Below, piece after piece: positions 9,516 to 29,286 of a stretch of DNA of 33,521 bases. The stretch covers positions 1 to 33,521 of the forward strand of contig JAFPZP010000060.1 of NCBI GenBank assembly GCA_017417215.1, read 5' to 3'. The translations under genes were made by a program, and so were the position numbers. Numbering within the stretch: the stretch's first letter is position 1; each line of letters starts with the position of its first letter. A model generated the notes under the pieces. That model worked only from the letters and a program-made list of their open reading frames with translations, did no database searches and was not told where the DNA came from. The DNA is from Candidatus Rifleibacteriota bacterium. GTDB taxonomy: Bacteria > Muiribacteriota > Ozemobacteria > Ozemobacterales > Ozemobacteraceae.

Positions 9516-10145
9516 TTATCTTCTAGCTATTACAGTAGAAGCTCCCGTAACTTTTTGACCTATTTTCACATCAATCTTTGCATCTAATGGCATAAAGATT
9601 TCTGTTCTAGAACCAAATCTAATTAATCCGAAACGTTCTCCTAATTGAGTTTCATCACCAGGATTCTTCCAGCATATTATTCTTCTGGCAATTAAACCAG
9701 CTATCTGTTTAACAAGAACTCTGTAACCGTCAGGACTTTCAATTCCAACTGAATTCTGTTCATTATCTGTAGAAGCTTTTGGTTCAAAAGCTGCCATGAA
9801 TTTCCCAGGTGCATATTGTCTGTATGCTATTTTCCCTTTAATTGGAGAACGATTAATATGGACATCAAATATAGATAAGAAAATAGTAACACGCTTTGCT
9901 GGACCATCAATAAATGGAGCGTGTTCTACAGAATCAATTCCAATGACTCTGCCATCAGCAGGTGAAACAATCAAACCTTCACCTTCAGGAATCTTACGTT
10001 CAGGATCTCTAAAGAAATAAAGAGTAAAACCTGTAAGAAGATAGAAAAGCCTACCAATCCATTTATTAATATATGAAGTACAAATTCCCAAAGCCAAAAA
10101 GACTCCTGCAAATTTAAACCCCTCTTTATGAATTGGACTTCTCAT
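9516..10145 (-). CDS. psd: Phosphatidylserine decarboxylase, short form
   Basis: Converts phosphatidylserine to phosphatidylethanolamine using a pyruvoyl group made by self-cleavage. At 209 residues it is the short type. A membrane-associated N-terminal hydrophobic region (about 10-45) is followed by the conserved VHINRSP and APGKF..A segments and by the cleavage site at Gly178-Ser179 in RFGSRTEIF; Ser179 should become the pyruvoyl residue. AAGGAGA lies about 8 nt before the ATG, and a near-consensus sigma70 promoter stands 34-63 nt upstream. It is the first gene of the psd-pssA unit. Confidence 0.93.
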   Translation of the reverse strand: MRSPIHKEGFKFAGVFLALGICTSYINKWIGRLFYLLTGFTLYFFRDPERKIPEGEGLIVSPADGRVIGIDSVEHAPFIDGPAKRVTIFLSIFDVHINRSPIKGKIAYRQYAPGKFMAAFEPKASTDNEQNSVGIESPDGYRVLVKQIAGLIARRIICWKNPGDETQLGERFGLIRFGSRTEIFMPLDAKIDVKIGQKVTGASTVIARR

Positions 10146-17229: not shown

Positions 17230-18840
17230 CTAGAGCAGATTCAACAGGTTCTGAAGTTTCGCGCAGCGTTCAGATTCATCTTTGCAGTTTTCCATAAGCT
17301 CATTAATCTTGATAAGCAGTTCAGCCTTAAGATTGTGTGAGTCTCTGGTAAGTGATGAGTAAGCTGGTGCAGAAGAACGAACAAGAACATATTTAACCTT
17401 ATCGGGTTTCTTACTAAGCTCAACATCACCAACTTTAACGAACTGAAGAAGGTCGTATTCTTCACCCATTTTTGGGGCTATAGCCTTGAAACCACGTTCT
17501 TCTTTAATAAGTTTAACTAATGCCTCTGAAGACTCTGGTTCACCATGAGTAACGAATATATTTCGAGGTTCTTCTTCTACAGCTTTAAGCCATTTCATCA
17601 GACCATTCTGGTCAGCATGACCGCTATATCCATAAATAGACTCAACTTTGGCACCGACGTTTATTTCTTCGCCAAATATTCTGACTTTCTTAGCACCTTC
17701 GCTGATTAAACGGCCTAAGGTTCCCTCTGCCTGATAACCTACGAAAACTATAGTGTTTTTTGGGTCCCAAAGATTATGTTTTAAATGGTGTTTAATACGA
17801 CCCGCATCACACATACCGCTAGCAGACATAATAACAATATTATCTTTTTCGTTAAGAAGCTTAGATTCATCTACGGAATTTGTGAAATGAAAATCAGGAT
17901 GGTCAAACAAACCTCCCATCTGCTTCATGACGTTTGTAGCATCTTCATCATACATGTCTGGGTATTTTAAGAATACCTGAGTAATTTCCTTTGCAAGCGG
18001 AGAATCAACATAGACAGGTATTCTAGATATTTTATTACGTTTCTTAAGAATAAGAATATCGTGAAGCAAATCCTGAGTTCTTTCTAATGAAAAAGCTGGA
18101 ATAATAATTTTTCCACCGCGTTTTTCAGCATCTGCAAAGACTTCCGCAATCTTATTCAATCTCTGCTCTTTTGTTACGATATCTCTGTTCCTGTCACCGT
18201 AAGTAGATTCTATAAGCAGAAAATCCATCGCCTTAATACGGTCAGGGTCATTGATAATCGGGTGGTCATCTTCACCCAAGTCTCCTGAAAAGACTATTTT
18301 TCTAGTTTCATTGCCTTCTTTTACGTTTATTTCAATAAAAGAAGAGCCTAATACGTGCCCCGCATTATGGAAAGTGACATCGATATTTTTTGCAGGAGCA
18401 AAAGCTCTATAGCGTTCTATGCCTCTCAATAGACTAATTGCATTATCAGCATCTATTTCATCATAAATTGGTGTAACAGGTGGAATTCCTTTACGTTCGT
18501 TGCGCTTGTTCAACTGAAAGACTTCAACTTCTTGTATTCGCGCAGAATCTGGAAGTAGGTATTTAAGCAAATCTACAGTAGGAAGAGTTGCATAAATCAT
18601 TCCATGAAAGCCTTTTTTAACCAGTTTTGGCAACAAACCCGTATGGTCTATATGGGCATGAGTTATAAGAACAAAATCTATTGAGGCCGGGTCGAAAGCA
18701 AATTCTTTATAGTTGTTTTCTTTCAAAGTTTTATTACCTTGAAACATTCCGCAGTCTACAAGAAACTTTGAACCAGCAGCTTCAACAAGGTAACAGGAAC
18801 CAGTAACACAACCAGCGGCACCATGAAAGGATATCTTCAT
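17230..18840 (-). CDS. MBL-fold / beta-CASP RNase-like protein (CPSF73 / YSH1-like)
   Basis: Protein of 536 residues with the metallo-beta-lactamase zinc motif His61-x-His63-x-Asp65-His66 (THAHIDHTG), the GHVLGSSFIEI and FSGDLGEDDHPI histidine/aspartate motifs and a beta-CASP insert (about 210-400). SASGMCDAGRIKHHL, GYQAEGTLGR and the C-terminal RMMBL motif YSGHADQNGL followed by VTHGEPESSEAL are typical of the KH-free prokaryotic CPSF73-like nucleases. An additional tail of about 70-80 residues follows the core. The likely role is RNA processing or decay in the cytoplasm; endo- versus exonuclease activity cannot be decided. AAGGAAA about 8 nt before the ATG supports the start. Confidence 0.9.
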   Translation of the reverse strand: MKISFHGAAGCVTGSCYLVEAAGSKFLVDCGMFQGNKTLKENNYKEFAFDPASIDFVLITHAHIDHTGLLPKLVKKGFHGMIYATLPTVDLLKYLLPDSARIQEVEVFQLNKRNERKGIPPVTPIYDEIDADNAISLLRGIERYRAFAPAKNIDVTFHNAGHVLGSSFIEINVKEGNETRKIVFSGDLGEDDHPIINDPDRIKAMDFLLIESTYGDRNRDIVTKEQRLNKIAEVFADAEKRGGKIIIPAFSLERTQDLLHDILILKKRNKISRIPVYVDSPLAKEITQVFLKYPDMYDEDATNVMKQMGGLFDHPDFHFTNSVDESKLLNEKDNIVIMSASGMCDAGRIKHHLKHNLWDPKNTIVFVGYQAEGTLGRLISEGAKKVRIFGEEINVGAKVESIYGYSGHADQNGLMKWLKAVEEEPRNIFVTHGEPESSEALVKLIKEERGFKAIAPKMGEEYDLLQFVKVGDVELSKKPDKVKYVLVRSSAPAYSSLTRDSHNLKAELLIKINELMENCKDESERCAKLQNLLNLL

Positions 18841-19198
18841 TTTTACTTTCCTTTATTTATATGAGACATAAGATTTAAGATATAAGATGTAAGATTTTAG
18901 TTGTTATTGTTTTTGGTAGTTATTGTAGTTATTGTTTCATCTAAGCTTTGCAAGCTAACTTACGATATAACAATAAAAACAACAAAAACCAACTACAATG
19001 AAAACGATCTTCAATCTCCATTTTTGGTCTTCTATTCTCCCGATGCGCCCCCAGTTTAGCTGGGGGAGCTGTCAGCTTGCTGACTGAAGGGGTCTTCTCC
19101 TAACCAATAACTACAACAAAAACCAACTACCCTAAAAACTATCTTTAATCTTCAATCTTCTATCTTATATCTCCATTTTTAATCTTATATCTTATATC
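18841..19198. repeat. Repeat-filled gap: heptads, GTAGTT/GTT-rich repeats and a palindromic element
   Basis: No gene is visible. It holds a TAAGATA-like heptad tract (18864-18898, plus orientation), a GTTATTGTAGTTATTG-type repeat (18898-18938) with inverted partners at 18969-19002 and 19102-19140, two-hairpin element copy E (19048-19092) and another TATCTTA heptad tract up to the stop of the 165-residue exported gene (about 19159-19198). Confidence 0.75.
19048..19092 (-). repeat. Two-hairpin palindromic element, copy E
   Basis: CCCCCAG...CTGGGGG stem (19048-19054 and 19060-19066), then GTCAG...CTGAC (19071-19075 and 19080-19084) and a closing GGGG. Read on the minus strand it has the same order as copies A-C: a C-rich lead, a variable GTC...GAC stem, then the C-run/G-run stem. 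Confidence 0.65.
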
Positions 19199-22572: not shown

Positions 22573-23136
22573 TTACTCTTTTACTACAGAAACGGGCAAC
22601 TTCTTATTTTTAACATAAGTAAAAAGTTTCATAAGTCGAAGCTCGTGTGTTGCTACCATAGTATTGCCTAAGTCTGTTGTATATTCAGCCCTTAAGGTAT
22701 TGCCTTTTTTATCTTTGATTTCTTTCATAGAAACCACTTTACCACCATCGGGAGAATCAAAAGTTCTTGGCAAATGACAAATCAGACCATAGCGGCCTTC
22801 TGCTATTTCATAAGCATTTTCACGAAGTTCCTTCGGAAGTTTTTCCAATTCGCCTTGATATAAGGGAATATAAGTTCCAACAGTTCCGAAATCACCTTGG
22901 TCAATCAAGCCAGCAAAAGGTCTGGAAAAAGATTTCAAGCCTAAAGCGTCAAGAATTTTTCCGATTAACTCAGGAGTAACAATTTTTACACTCGGCTTAA
23001 CAACCTTAATACTTGTTTTTTTAGCAGAGCTTTTAGTAGTAGAAGACTTCTTTGCAGTTGTCTTCTTCTTGACCGTAGTTTTTCTAGCTGTAGTTTTTGT
23101 TGTAATTACAGGGTTAGTTCTTTTTATTATTTCCAT
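22573..23136 (-). CDS. Protein with a histone-H1-like basic tail and an unknown C-terminal domain
   Basis: Protein of 187 residues. Residues about 10-50 are almost only Lys, Thr, Ser, Ala and Arg in repeats such as KTTARKTTVKKKTTAKK and SAKKTS, like eukaryotic H1 tails and bacterial H1-like proteins, which suggests nucleic-acid binding. Residues about 55-187 form a compact domain not recognised here, with LIGKILDALGLKSFSRPF, GTYIPLYQGELEKLPKELRE and YTTDLGNTMVATHELRLMK. There is no signal peptide. The ATG has no strong ribosome site. It is 57 nt downstream of alr on the same strand and could be the last gene of that unit; a strong terminator follows. Nucleoid association is inference from the tail only. 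Confidence 0.72.
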   Translation of the reverse strand: MEIIKRTNPVITTKTTARKTTVKKKTTAKKSSTTKSSAKKTSIKVVKPSVKIVTPELIGKILDALGLKSFSRPFAGLIDQGDFGTVGTYIPLYQGELEKLPKELRENAYEIAEGRYGLICHLPRTFDSPDGGKVVSMKEIKDKKGNTLRAEYTTDLGNTMVATHELRLMKLFTYVKNKKLPVSVVKE

Positions 23137-23193: not shown

Positions 23194-24324
23194 TCAGTTT
23201 TCGTAATAACGCTGTAAACGATGATTGATCAAACAGGTAACTTCGTAAGAAATGGTACCTAATTTTTCTGCCAATTCTTCACCGGTTATTTCTTCATTGC
23301 CTGATTTACCTAATAAAACTACTTCATCGCCCACCTTAACATTAGGCTTTTCACCAGTTCCAAGACTGCACATGCTTTGATCCATACATATTCGACCAAC
23401 AACCGGGCAAGACATACCATTAATCAGCACCCTACCCCTGTTTGAAAATTGTCTATTGAAACCGTCTGCATAACCAGCCGGGAAAGTAGCTATCCAGGTA
23501 TCTTCCGATGCAACCCAGGTTCTACCATAACCAACAGAGGTACCCTTTGTAACTTTCTTGATAAATGAAACTCTGGTTTTTACACTCATACCAGGTCTTA
23601 AATCAAGTGTCTGGGGCACATCTTTAGATGGGTAGAAACCATAAATAATGATTCCTGGTCTAACCATATTGTAATGTGCATTAGGATAAGCAGTAATAGC
23701 AGCACTGTTAGAGCAGTGCACAAGTTTAAATTTAAAATTAAGAGAAGTTTCAATTTTGTTAACGATTTTGTAGAACTTGTCTATCTGTCTTTCTGTAAAA
23801 GTTCTGCTTGAATCATCACTTACGGGCATATGTGTCATAACGCCTTCCAATTCAAGATTCGGGCATTGTTTTATTATAATTTCCGCAAGCCTTAATCCTT
23901 CTTCTTCACCAACACCTATTCGCCCCATACCTGTATCAAGCTGTAAATGAACGACTGCCTTTTTCCCCATTAATCTTGCTGTTTCATCATATTTACGAAT
24001 ATTATCTTCTTCACAAACACAAAGTGCTATTTCATTAGCTACTGCAGATTCCATCTCACATTCAAAAGCAGGACTAAGTTTTAAAACTGGAAGTGTTACA
24101 CCTGCTTCTCGAAGTTCCATTCCTTCTGGAACTGTTGCTATTGCAAGATAATCAGCTAATTTATGTTTTTGAGCCATCAAAGCAATTTCCACCGCTCCAT
24201 GACCATAAGCATTTGCTTTGATAGAAAGTAAAATCTTGTATTTGGGGTCAACGACTTTACGTATTTCCTCAATATTGTGCTTTATATTATTCAAATGAAT
24301 AACAGCATGAGTTTGATACAACAT
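23194..24324 (-). CDS. alr: Alanine racemase
   Basis: PLP enzyme interconverting L- and D-alanine, needed for peptidoglycan. At 376 residues it has the usual length. Lys36 in SIKANAYGHG binds PLP; Tyr285 in FPAGYADGF is the second catalytic base; the C-terminal beta domain has VVGRICMDQSM and GDEVVLLG. It is 4 nt downstream of the ornithine/alanine-racemase-like gene, with GAAGG overlapping the end of that gene, so the two are co-translated. Having two different PLP racemase folds side by side is unusual and links D-amino-acid supply to this operon. Confidence 0.95.
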   Translation of the reverse strand: MLYQTHAVIHLNNIKHNIEEIRKVVDPKYKILLSIKANAYGHGAVEIALMAQKHKLADYLAIATVPEGMELREAGVTLPVLKLSPAFECEMESAVANEIALCVCEEDNIRKYDETARLMGKKAVVHLQLDTGMGRIGVGEEEGLRLAEIIIKQCPNLELEGVMTHMPVSDDSSRTFTERQIDKFYKIVNKIETSLNFKFKLVHCSNSAAITAYPNAHYNMVRPGIIIYGFYPSKDVPQTLDLRPGMSVKTRVSFIKKVTKGTSVGYGRTWVASEDTWIATFPAGYADGFNRQFSNRGRVLINGMSCPVVGRICMDQSMCSLGTGEKPNVKVGDEVVLLGKSGNEEITGEELAEKLGTISYEVTCLINHRLQRYYEN

Positions 24325-24328
24325 TTGT

Positions 24329-25435
24329 TTAACCTTCTTTTATAACTTTAAATATATATTCTGAGGTAATTAGAGCTAATAGAGCGCCATAGCTTGGATA
24401 GAAAGCAATTTCGTCACCAACTTCAAAAGGTCGCTTACAGTCGGTTACATCTAAAATCAAATGGTCGCTTGATGCACCAAGAATTTCAACCCCTTCATCC
24501 AGTGGTGTCAAACCATCTGGAATGACGTCTTGTCTACCTACATTACAGATTATTCTTGTTCTTAAGCCTTTATCAACGAATTCAGGAACATTACCAAAAG
24601 CATCCTGACCAATGGTTCCGATTGGCTTAGAAGGCTTAGTTTCAGCTTCTATAACTTCAGATTTAAGAATGAATGTATCTTGGCGGGTTCCAGGCCATGG
24701 ACTGCGGTCTATAACATTTCTGCCAAGCATAATGGCTTCACCTATTCTATAAAGGTTAATTCCACCAGGCAATCTGCCAGAAGCCAACAATGGCAAACCT
24801 GAACTGTTACCGCCACAGACTACAGATAAAGGCAATTCTGTAGCACGTCTGCATGCAGAAACGGTATCCATCAAAAGGCGCATATTTTCAGGAGTTGGGA
24901 TTACACCACCATAACAAGCGAGATTTGTTCCAAGACCTATAACTTCAATACCAGGAACAGAGGCAGCAGCTTTAACCAGTTTCGGAGCCTTGTCTGGCCA
25001 GGTTCCTTCACGCAAATCACCCACATCAATCATTATTATTACACGATGAATGTGATTTTGAACTATTGCTGCACGTCCAAGAGCTTCTATTGTTTCTATG
25101 GAAGAATTCAAGCTGATATCAGCAGCTTCAACAGTTTCAGCAGCTCTAGATGGAGTCGGCAGACGCAAAAGCATGAAGGGTCCTTTTAAACCACTGTCAC
25201 GAAGCTTGTAAAGGTTTTCTATTCTAGAATCGGCAAGCATATCAGCACCACCAGCCTGCATAGCTTTGGCGACTTCAACGTTTGCACCAACTACTTTAGT
25301 AACACAAGCCACTGAAACATGAGCATCATGGCATTGTTTTACAATAAATTCGGTATTCTGACGAACCCTTTCCGGGTAAATCTCTAAGCGTGGAGTCGGG
25401 TCACAGACCTTTCTAAATTGCGAATAATTTATCAT
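24329..25435 (-). CDS. Alanine/ornithine racemase family PLP enzyme (ornithine-racemase-like)
   Basis: Fold-type III PLP protein of 368 residues resembling the ornithine racemase (Orr) / YhfX group: LEIYPERVRQNTEFIV near the start, PLP Lys47 in VTKVVGAN, GLGTNLACYGGVIPTPEN, VVCGGNSSGLPLL, NLYRIGEAIMLGRN and a C-terminal beta domain. The ATG at 25435 is preferred to the GTG at 25444, because GGAG (25447-25444) gives 8-nt spacing to the ATG but overlaps the GTG. It overlaps the GlmL-family gene by 23 bp, so translation is coupled. Known Orr enzymes make D-ornithine for ornithine 4,5-aminomutase; no aminomutase gene is in the window. Alanine, ornithine or another amino acid could be the substrate. 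Confidence 0.82.
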   Translation of the reverse strand: MINYSQFRKVCDPTPRLEIYPERVRQNTEFIVKQCHDAHVSVACVTKVVGANVEVAKAMQAGGADMLADSRIENLYKLRDSGLKGPFMLLRLPTPSRAAETVEAADISLNSSIETIEALGRAAIVQNHIHRVIIMIDVGDLREGTWPDKAPKLVKAAASVPGIEVIGLGTNLACYGGVIPTPENMRLLMDTVSACRRATELPLSVVCGGNSSGLPLLASGRLPGGINLYRIGEAIMLGRNVIDRSPWPGTRQDTFILKSEVIEAETKPSKPIGTIGQDAFGNVPEFVDKGLRTRIICNVGRQDVIPDGLTPLDEGVEILGASSDHLILDVTDCKRPFEVGDEIAFYPSYGALLALITSEYIFKVIKEG

Positions 25436-26765
25436 GTTTTTCACTCCAGCTTTTAAATGTATTTTTAACTAATTCAGGATAATCTACACTCATTGTGCCT
25501 AGTGCAGAAAATAAATAATCTGAGTCGATTAGAATCTTAGCGTTCTTTGGAGGCATTAAATACTTTCCTACCCCTGTGCATATCGACTCTAGAATTTTAC
25601 GCCCTCCCTCAACTCTTGTCAAGGCACCGCCTGTTCCGATTACATACTTGACTGCAGAGAGGTCTTTCCCTTTTATAACCTGTCTGCGCCCTACAGGTGT
25701 AAATATTTCAGATACAACGGCAGCATGACGTCTAACGCCTATTTCTACTGCTTTTCGACAGAGCCAGCTAGTCATTTCTTTTTCAGAATCAGAGAAAGGA
25801 ATAGCCTTTACTTCATCTGCTTTATCCTGTCTGCTTGCTTCTTCAGATATTTCTATTATGTTAGCGGCATTTACGAAAACGCCCAAATCACCTTCAACAG
25901 AACGTTTTGAATGAGGTTCGGGGTCTGTAAGTTTATCAGCAAACTCTTTGCTTCCATCTGTAACAGAATGAACATCAGTAGTTGCACCGCCAACGTCAAC
26001 TACAACTACGTCACCAAGAGTTTCAGCAAAAATCTCTGTAGCTCTGAGAACTGCTGCAGGAGTAGGAATAATAGTATGATTGGAAATAGCCTTCAGACGT
26101 TCCATACCAGGAGCATGAATTATATGCTTTGAGAAAAGGTCTTGCATTCTTCGTCTCAAAGGCTCAACATTCAACTGGTCTACATCTGGGAAAACATTAG
26201 GAACTACAGCTATTTCAACACCAGTTCTATGGAAAATGGTTTCAACGCCACGTTTTAACGCAGAATTACCGGCATAAACGACTGGTGCGCCAATATCCAT
26301 GGCAGCAAGCTCCATAGCGTTGCCTAAGACTATTTCTTTGGCTCCGAAATCGACACCACCAGCCAGAACTATCATATTAGGCTGGAGTTCTTCGATTTCG
26401 TCAATATCGTATTCGCTTAACTCACCAGCAGTAACTTTTTTTATTATGGCACCTGCACCAAGACTGGCTTCTTTTGCCGCTCTTGCAGTCATATTATAAG
26501 TCAGCCCGTGTACAGTAACACGCAGTCCACCAGCAGCCGAACTATTTGCAAAAACTTCGCAAGTATCGGTTCCGTATGAACTGCGTTTTTCTAAATCATC
26601 AACAGCAGCAAAAATTCCTATTCCAACATTGCCTTGAGCAACAGAAGTAGGCGCAAAACCTTGGGCAACGTGTTCCAGAGAATTGTCAGCAGTCTTCATA
26701 AAGCCGTTGGCCTTAGTTATTGTGCTGCCAACCTCTAGAGTTAAGAAATCAAGCTGCTTTGGCAT
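25413..26765 (-). CDS. GlmL/MutL-family ASKHA ATPase
   Basis: Protein of 450 residues of the GlmL (MutL, glutamate-mutase-associated) family. Two actin-like ATPase segments are visible: DFLTLEVGSTITKANGF (about 6-22) and VVVVDVGGATTDVHSV (253-268), plus the C-terminal GVRRHAAVVSEIFTPVGRRQ and YVIGTGGALTRVEGG motifs. Family members are encoded next to B12-dependent glutamate mutase or ornithine aminomutase and are thought to act as their reactivating or chaperone partner. Here neither mutase is adjacent; the downstream gene is an Orr-like racemase. The gene begins 9 nt after the GH13 gene stop with a weak ribosome site, implying coupling. The exact role is inferred from the family. Confidence 0.85.
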   Translation of the reverse strand: MPKQLDFLTLEVGSTITKANGFMKTADNSLEHVAQGFAPTSVAQGNVGIGIFAAVDDLEKRSSYGTDTCEVFANSSAAGGLRVTVHGLTYNMTARAAKEASLGAGAIIKKVTAGELSEYDIDEIEELQPNMIVLAGGVDFGAKEIVLGNAMELAAMDIGAPVVYAGNSALKRGVETIFHRTGVEIAVVPNVFPDVDQLNVEPLRRRMQDLFSKHIIHAPGMERLKAISNHTIIPTPAAVLRATEIFAETLGDVVVVDVGGATTDVHSVTDGSKEFADKLTDPEPHSKRSVEGDLGVFVNAANIIEISEEASRQDKADEVKAIPFSDSEKEMTSWLCRKAVEIGVRRHAAVVSEIFTPVGRRQVIKGKDLSAVKYVIGTGGALTRVEGGRKILESICTGVGKYLMPPKNAKILIDSDYLFSALGTMSVDYPELVKNTFKSWSEKHDKLFAI

Positions 26766-26774
26766 ATAGCTTTA

Positions 26775-28823
26775 TTACCAGGCAAAGAAGCAGCACTGAC
26801 CTGCTTTAAGGCTATATTTAAGTTTGTTGTTTTCAACCTTGAAGGTTACATGACCATCAGTAAGTCTGTCGCTTAAGCCCTTAACACCGTCTGGATTACA
26901 CCAGCTTATGTCGATTTCACCTTCGTAACCATTCTGCAAATCTCTGTTGAAGAGAACCATAACACGCTTGTTGTCATTTCCTCTGATAAAAGCGATTACA
27001 TCAGAATAGCCAGTCATGAATGATGCAAAAGTATCTACACTTGTTGGTTTAACACATTCAGCATATTCTTCACGAAGAGCAAGAACCTTCTTGACGAAAC
27101 TATACATTTCGTGCTTGCCATCCCAGTCGTAGCCAACCAAGTCAAACAAAGCAAGCTTTTTGCCCTTTAATGATTCTAACAATTCGTTAGAGAAATCAAG
27201 ACCGGTATTAACAGGCATTGCTTCGCCAAGTTCCTGACCAGCATGTATAAATGGAACAGCATGTGGAAGCATTGTGTTAACCAGGAAAGCGTATTTTGCA
27301 TAAGCAACTCCGCCTTCTCTGCCACAGGCTCTTGGAGTGTTGTGGTTTTCAACGGCACCGAAGAAGCTTAATGGAACGCCCTTCTTGCCGATGTGTTCAA
27401 GCATGTCATACATACCATCACGGCGGTATTCAACCCACCAGCAGTAGCCGACAACAGCATTATAACCAGCATCAACACTAGCCTGACCAATTTCAAAGTT
27501 TTCAGATAGGAAACAGAAATTGGGGTCTACAGTTCTGGCTTTGCCTATTAATTTCTGCATTAAAGGAACTGGAACAGCGTGACCCATATCAATCATAACG
27601 CCATCAATACCATATTCGGTCTGATATGTTGGAATCAAGTCTATGATTGCATCCCAAAGAGGCTGATTGGCAAGTTCCGGTCTGGCAAGCTTGTTATCAT
27701 ACATTCTGATTGTATTGTATGCAATATAGTTAAATTCAGGTTTTACAGGATTTTCATCCTTATACATCTTGAAGTATGTAACATCACCCCACGGCGGCTG
27801 ATTATCATCCGGTGGCCAGTCTGCAAAAGCGCCAGGAACTCTGACTTTGCATTTATCGCCTGTAATCGGATCTGTTCCATTTCCTTCATACTGACCTTTA
27901 TCGTTCAACTTAACTTCGCCTGCTTTTGGAGCAATTTTAAAGAAGTTTACGTAGTTCTGATGTGGAGCTGGTAAATCATTAAAATCATGAGCTTCAACCT
28001 TAGCCTTGATAACCTTCAATTCTTCTTCTGTGAAAATTGGGTTGCCGTAAGTAGCTTCACATTTAGCTATATCTGTTTCTCCAGGAGTTCTATCCTGAAT
28101 CTTGGCATCAAGCCAATAGAACCAGTCTGGGTGTTCAGCTATCCAGTCAGCGTCTTTACTTGCTGTTCTGAAAACAAATTCACAGATTACTCTGATGCCT
28201 AACATATGAGCAGCCTGCATAAAAGCTCTGAACTGGTCTTCAGCAGACATTTCAACCATTGGGTCAGCCAAGGTTTCTTCTAATTTATATGGGTTCTTGA
28301 TGCCGTAAGGAGAACCAAGTTCGCCCTTATTGCCATCATGACCTATAGAAGTTATAGGAAGAAGATGTATTGTTGTGCAACCCAAAGCTTTGATGTAACC
28401 AAGCATTGCAATAGCTTTCAAGAAAGTGCCTGATTCTCTGATTCCATCCTGGTTAAGAGTAAGGTCAACCATACTACCGCCCAGCTTGTTATCGCCGTTA
28501 TGGTCATAAGCAGTAGTTAGTCTGACAAACATATTATAAATAGCCTGATTGTTTATCCAACTACCGCCTTCGCCGCCTTCAATCTGACCATTGAGGGAAC
28601 GGAAAGGATCGATGCCTTCTACTTTATTCTTTTCAATAGCTTCGATATGCTTTAGGTAAAATTCAGCAGGATTAATAGAAACTGGCTTCTTGCCGTCTAC
28701 TGGTTCTTTTCCTACTTCAACCCATAAAGATGGAACATAATATTTATGTTTAAAAGGTTTGTCTGCAAGCTTTTTCAGCTGTGTCTTCAATGATTCTAAT
28801 GGATTTGCCATACGTTCGGACAT
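26775..28823 (-). CDS. GH13 alpha-amylase-superfamily protein, GlgE-like, with altered conserved residues
   Basis: Protein of 682 residues with a (beta/alpha)8 GH13 core and a C-terminal beta domain ending in CCFFAW. Likely nucleophile Asp412 (DGVMIDMGHAVP) and acid/base Glu441 (FLSENFE) are present. The segments VICEFVFRTASKDADWIAEHPDWF (split: about 212-235) and IDMGHAVPVPLMQKLI resemble the maltosyltransferase GlgE and its relatives more than secreted amylases. Two conserved positions differ: the usual Arg two before the nucleophile is Met410, and the usual Asp of region IV is Asn495 (VENHNTPR). There is no signal peptide, so action on intracellular glucan is likely if the protein is active. 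GGAGGAG 5 nt before the ATG supports the start. It is the first gene of the GlmL-Orr-Alr unit. Confidence 0.85.
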   Translation of the reverse strand: MSERMANPLESLKTQLKKLADKPFKHKYYVPSLWVEVGKEPVDGKKPVSINPAEFYLKHIEAIEKNKVEGIDPFRSLNGQIEGGEGGSWINNQAIYNMFVRLTTAYDHNGDNKLGGSMVDLTLNQDGIRESGTFLKAIAMLGYIKALGCTTIHLLPITSIGHDGNKGELGSPYGIKNPYKLEETLADPMVEMSAEDQFRAFMQAAHMLGIRVICEFVFRTASKDADWIAEHPDWFYWLDAKIQDRTPGETDIAKCEATYGNPIFTEEELKVIKAKVEAHDFNDLPAPHQNYVNFFKIAPKAGEVKLNDKGQYEGNGTDPITGDKCKVRVPGAFADWPPDDNQPPWGDVTYFKMYKDENPVKPEFNYIAYNTIRMYDNKLARPELANQPLWDAIIDLIPTYQTEYGIDGVMIDMGHAVPVPLMQKLIGKARTVDPNFCFLSENFEIGQASVDAGYNAVVGYCWWVEYRRDGMYDMLEHIGKKGVPLSFFGAVENHNTPRACGREGGVAYAKYAFLVNTMLPHAVPFIHAGQELGEAMPVNTGLDFSNELLESLKGKKLALFDLVGYDWDGKHEMYSFVKKVLALREEYAECVKPTSVDTFASFMTGYSDVIAFIRGNDNKRVMVLFNRDLQNGYEGEIDISWCNPDGVKGLSDRLTDGHVTFKVENNKLKYSLKAGQCCFFAW

Positions 28824-28926
28824 TTATCTCCTCCGATAATTTGTTTGGCTAATATATTAGCATATTTTTGATGGCTATCGCCACTGTTTTTATTGTGGTT
28901 GGTAGTTTCGAGGTAAAGCCTCATTT

Positions 28927-29020
28927 AGAGCATAGAGCGACAGAGCATAGAGCGACAGAGCTTAGAGCAACAGAGCGTAGAGCATCAGAGCATAGAGCGA
29001 AGAGCCAAGCGGAACTTGGC
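28927..29020. repeat. 15-bp AGAGC array capped by a hairpin
   Basis: About five copies of the 15-mer AGAGCATAGAGCGAC (alternating 7- and 8-bp AGAGC units), degenerate toward the right, ending in a GCCAAG...CTTGGC stem (29004-29009 with 29015-29020). A short related AGAGC run capped by the same stem sequence lies at 32249-32276. Confidence 0.8.
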
Positions 29021-29240
29021 GTGATGGGTGGTTGGTGGTTGGTGATAAGTGAGCGGACAGTAGACGCGAGACCTCTATTCTCCGCACAAGGCTCGTTCCC
29101 TCTAAGTCTATTCGTAGATACAAATTCACAGAGACCGCGGAGGAGAATAAGGTTGAGCAAACAACTGTCAGCATTAAAGAAATTGAGAGTTAAAATAGTC
29201 TTCGGACTTAACTTTATACTGCTTATCCAGCTTCTCGAAG

Positions 29241-29286
29241 ATCCCCCAGTCTACTACGTAGACATCCCCCTTTGAAAAAGGGGGAT
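29241..29286 (+). repeat. Two-hairpin palindromic element, copy C
   Basis: ATCCCCC lead, GTCTAC...GTAGAC stem (29249-29254 and 29258-29263) and CCCCCTTT...AAAGGGGG stem (29266-29273 and 29277-29284). The order matches copies A and B, with a different central stem. Confidence 0.75.

Follow-up and report, generated by a model that had tools for sequence, protein, structure and literature searches.

The closest described counterpart of the locus studied here is the cluster of orr, oraS, oraE, ord, ortA, ortB and or-4 genes in C. sticklandii and Clostridioides difficile, which is built from the same enzyme families. The steps of the anaerobic oxidative L-ornithine pathway are described in PMC8803604; the oxidative pathway of C. 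sticklandii is reported to yield acetate, D-alanine and ammonia (PMC3091704), and L-alanine is given as the product in the C. difficile paper (PMC8803604). Two other systems are comparable to the product of or-4. GlmL, the glutamate mutase accessory protein, resembles Or-4 in belonging to the MutL family (PF13941), in its size and in its pairing with a B12-dependent mutase. The large subunit of the diol dehydratase reactivating factor (PDB 2d0o), which reactivates a B12-dependent enzyme, has the actin-like ATPase fold that is predicted for Or-4. A limited literature search for co-mention found no report of ornithine fermentation in Riflebacteria.

We analyzed a window of 33,521 nt, the whole stretch of DNA considered here, which is contig 21 of a Candidatus Riflebacteria assembly (108 contigs totalling 2.57 Mb; estimated completeness 69%). 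The searches and the mapping of gene neighbourhoods covered 24 genomes of the class.

Layout and family assignment of the or-4–orr–alr run

The window encodes an Or-4-type ATPase and an ornithine-racemase-like enzyme next to an alanine racemase (Table 1). The longest orr reading frame (24329–25444, minus strand) opens with a GTG at 25444, and the likely start is the ATG at 25435, which has a GGAG stretch just upstream. Taking this ATG, orr overlaps or-4 by exactly 23 bp, with the or-4 stop located at 25413; alr starts 4 nt past the orr stop, and a gap of 9 nt separates the end of the GH13-like gene from or-4. The open reading frames and their coordinates confirmed the layout given in the initial annotation, including the overlap, the position of alr and the GH13 gene in front.

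Table 1. Genes of the or-4–orr–alr run and its flanks in the window
Feature	Coordinates (nt)	Strand	Supporting matches
or-4, GlmL/MutL-family ATPase with a predicted actin-like fold	25413..26765	-	PF13941; best NCBIfam model NF040744 Or-4
orr, ornithine-racemase-like PLP enzyme	24329..25435	-	PF01168; NF040742
alr, alanine racemase	23194..24324	-	TIGR00492
GH13-like gene	26775..28823	-	weak Alpha-amylase / hDGE_amylase matches
conserved small protein, downstream of alr in most relatives	22573..23136	-	no Pfam match; synteny

The ATPase, for which the name Or-4 was taken from NCBIfam, scored 469.8 bits against the MutL family, 527.5 bits against its best NCBIfam model, NF040744 (cut-off 600), and 363.7 bits against the GlmL model NF040745 (cut-off 475). 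Orr scored 409.3 bits against NF040742, below the cut-off of 480, and only 34 against the alanine racemase model, and its K50 was invariant among 12 sequences. Every Riflebacteria copy of Or-4 and Orr fell below the NCBIfam cut-offs, those from intact clusters included. Alr reached 358 bits on TIGR00492, above the cut-off of 168, and no second full alr was detected in the assembly. The closest named relatives by Or-4 identity were the uncultured bacterium RUG334 (98%) and a reindeer Candidatus Riflebacteria MAG (97%). Outside the genus of the window genome, the relatives' copies, mostly located beside oraSE, were 58–73% identical for Or-4 and 60–68% for Orr.

The GH13-like gene is the immediate upstream neighbour of or-4 in genera g1, g4 and g9 and in genome G023, in all of which oraSE is not adjacent to or-4. 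It is a common neighbour that stands outside the ornithine pathway. Nearby, positions 28868–29275 of the window and 18781–19192 of locus L008 encode similar short peptides (e.g., ‘SAVSVNLYLRI’), and the occurrence of such stretches on two contigs suggests a dispersed intergenic repeat.

The aminomutase and the remaining pathway genes

Genes for the mutase, OrtA/B and Ord were all absent from the window. The initial annotation had recorded this absence and had offered, as its first option, a mutase encoded elsewhere in the genome. A search of the assembly for the Lys-AminoMut_A and B12-binding families, a kind of check that the initial annotation had suggested, led to contig 43 (C43), where oraS (116 aa) and oraE (a reading frame of 749 aa) are adjacent, so that the absence holds for the window and fails for the genome as to the mutase. 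OraE scored 1329 bits on the D-ornithine 4,5-aminomutase model (cut-off 800), and OraS 142 bits on the OAM alpha-subunit family PF16552. OraE shares 63% identity with the C. sticklandii enzyme of known structure (3kow) and retains H618 (axial, B12), K629 (the PLP lysine), E338, H225, R297 and Q299, residues whose roles are described in PMC3958899 and PMC4413051. A search of the assembly for cobalamin riboswitches gave no match.

Co-occurrence with the mutase, which had likewise been suggested as a check, was strong across the class. Or-4 and OraE were found together in 17 of the 24 genomes, Or-4 alone in one, OraE alone in none and neither in six, which places OraE in 17/18 genomes with Or-4 (Fisher p = 5e-5, a value inflated by relatedness and completeness). 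All 14 genomes of at least 90% completeness contained Or-4, Orr, OraE, OrtB and Ord. No OraE was found in G023, which carries a GH13-or4-orr-alr run.

Ord and OrtB gave no strong match in the assembly of the window genome. Because this assembly is 69% complete, their absence is weak counter-evidence, and it is best read as incompleteness. Both proteins were present in all three congeners; in one of these (G016), OrtA, OrtB and Ord passed the curated cut-offs. All five genes were found in two of the three congeners, whose Or-4, Orr and OraE are 95–98% identical to those of the window genome. According to the initial annotation, an oraSE locus elsewhere in the genome together with ornithine degradation genes would make the pair an ordinary split pathway. 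The former was found in the genome itself and the latter in congeners and other relatives, with Ord and OrtB unseen in the incomplete assembly. The window pair most probably belongs to an ordinary split pathway made up of known families, and genes missing from the contig neighbourhood do not equal a missing pathway.

Three arrangements of these genes were observed in the class. A single run, ord-ortA-ortB-oraS-oraE-or4-orr-alr, was present in G006, G007, G012 and G013, and the same full order spanned contig ends in G009 and G014, where it is probably one cluster. In G002, G003, G018, G020 and G022, oraS-oraE-or4-orr-alr stayed together with ord-ortB at another place. In the genus of the window genome and in G004 and G010, or4-orr-alr, oraSE and (where found) ord-ortAB formed three loci, with the GH13-like gene upstream of or-4. 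The outgroup G027, from another family of the phylum, contains the full cluster without alr, which suggests that the undivided arrangement is the probable ancestral state and that splitting came later. Rearrangements within the class would then have parted ord-ortAB, and in some genera oraSE as well, from or4-orr-alr. When the three-locus state was traced on a tree of Or-4, Orr and Alr, the best tree needed at least two changes; the tree analysis still leaves room for a single origin.

Alternative roles of the pair and exceptions in the phylum

As its second option, the initial annotation had proposed that the pair has a different job, which can be read as Orr and Alr supplying D-amino acids for the cell wall or signalling while the ATPase assists the racemase. 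The direct succession of orr and alr in 19/19 class genomes with orr is in keeping with such a role, as are the Orr score under the family cut-off and the G008 genome, where ord, orr and alr lie together and neither OraE nor Or-4 was detected. We nevertheless consider it very unlikely, since OraSE is present in the same genome, OraE accompanies Or-4 nearly throughout the class, and several relatives carry or4-orr-alr directly downstream of oraSE and ortAB. The proposal found no support at the locus, and a separate role is unneeded once OraSE has been located in the genome. It is exceedingly improbable that the window species has instead lost Ord and OrtAB, with Or-4, Orr and OraSE left over or making 2,4-diaminopentanoate for another use; the lack of a strong Ord or OrtB match, which would speak for this loss, comes from an incomplete assembly, and it is countered by the congeners: Ord and OrtB occur in all three, and two combine the complete set with nearly identical Or-4, Orr and OraE.

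Identification of the ATPase as GlmL itself is almost certainly mistaken. Despite membership in the same Pfam family and an appreciable score on the GlmL model, the window protein matched the Or-4 model 164 bits better, whereas the GlmL copies of the class scored 460–469 bits on the GlmL model and 254–277 on the Or-4 model. These copies are encoded within about 150–240 bp of GlmE in many class genomes (e.g., L054–L060), and no GlmE was found in the assembly of the window genome. The GlmL assignment was rejected on the score difference and the lack of GlmE. Other members of the MutL family were also seen: frames of about 570–680 aa occur in most class genomes, and locus L002 (G000:C107, 1141–2955) encodes a 604-aa protein with a C-terminal extension, next to genes for a membrane-like protein and for a 373-aa protein weakly similar to RnfC_N/biotinyl.

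Parts of the set occur in other settings in certain members of the phylum. In G008 (83% complete), ord, orr and alr lie side by side at 9894–13180 of contig C33 (L048) with no ortAB, oraSE or or-4 between them, and the rest of that genome yielded no OrtB, OraE or Or-4. Stand-alone genes for Or-4-like ATPases, scoring about 540–549 bits, occur in G025 (L080, 1325–2692) and G026 (L081, 8660–9985), where their neighbour is an rRNA methyltransferase-like gene and neither a mutase nor a racemase is encoded close by. That some phylum members use these pieces, Ord-Orr-Alr in G008 and the stand-alone Or-4 in G025 and G026, without the mutase appears rather doubtful. If true, it would mean a role of Or-4 or Orr outside ornithine fermentation, which does not apply to the window genome with its OraSE.

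Proposed pathway and comparison with known systems

Taken together, our analysis makes it highly probable that Or-4 and Orr of the window belong to the anaerobic oxidative L-ornithine pathway and have been parted from the other genes of its cluster, and it assigns ornithine fermentation to the majority of genomes in an uncultured class of Riflebacteria. Judged by family and context, Orr would convert L-ornithine to D-ornithine, the substrate of OraSE. By homology, and with the cofactor residues kept, OraS-OraE from C43 would shift the amino group with AdoCbl and PLP as cofactors, and Ord and OrtAB, as present in the congeners, would then lead to acetyl-CoA and alanine. Alr may turn D-alanine, the reported end product, into L-alanine and serve cell-wall supply as well. 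The constant orr-alr order fits D-alanine as the pathway product, and a cell-wall role of Alr is also likely because no other full alr was found in the assembly. The pairing offers the simple idea that the pathway begins and ends with a racemase.

In this pathway, Or-4 would serve OraSE as an ATP-dependent chaperone or reactivator, in the way that diol dehydratase reactivase serves its own enzyme. Its structure model (pLDDT 70, moderate confidence) resembled FtsA, Hsp70, exopolyphosphatase (PPX) and diol dehydratase reactivase, with low TM-scores in the PDB matches (query-normalised at most 0.35 among the significant ones); sequence searches of the PDB found no credible Or-4 relative. From this model we infer a predicted actin-like ATPase fold. 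Or-4 tracks OraE as GlmL tracks GlmE, which would support the view that each B12 mutase has its own helper ATPase. By analogy with the GlmL-GlmE pair, and considering the fold and the co-occurrence, a chaperone or reactivator role of Or-4 is the most likely one.

The fold of Or-4 matched that of the diol dehydratase reactivating factor only weakly (2d0o; query TM-score 0.35), and no small subunit was identified. Unlike GlmL, the window ATPase scored far better as Or-4 and comes from an assembly lacking GlmE, and the relatives possess a distinct GlmL near GlmE. In contrast to the clostridial cluster, the genes of the window genome are split into separate loci with alr placed after orr, its Or-4 and Orr do not reach the NCBIfam cut-offs, and Ord and OrtB are unseen in the incomplete assembly. 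Like the clostridial cluster, relatives from the same family as the window genome hold the whole set in one cluster.
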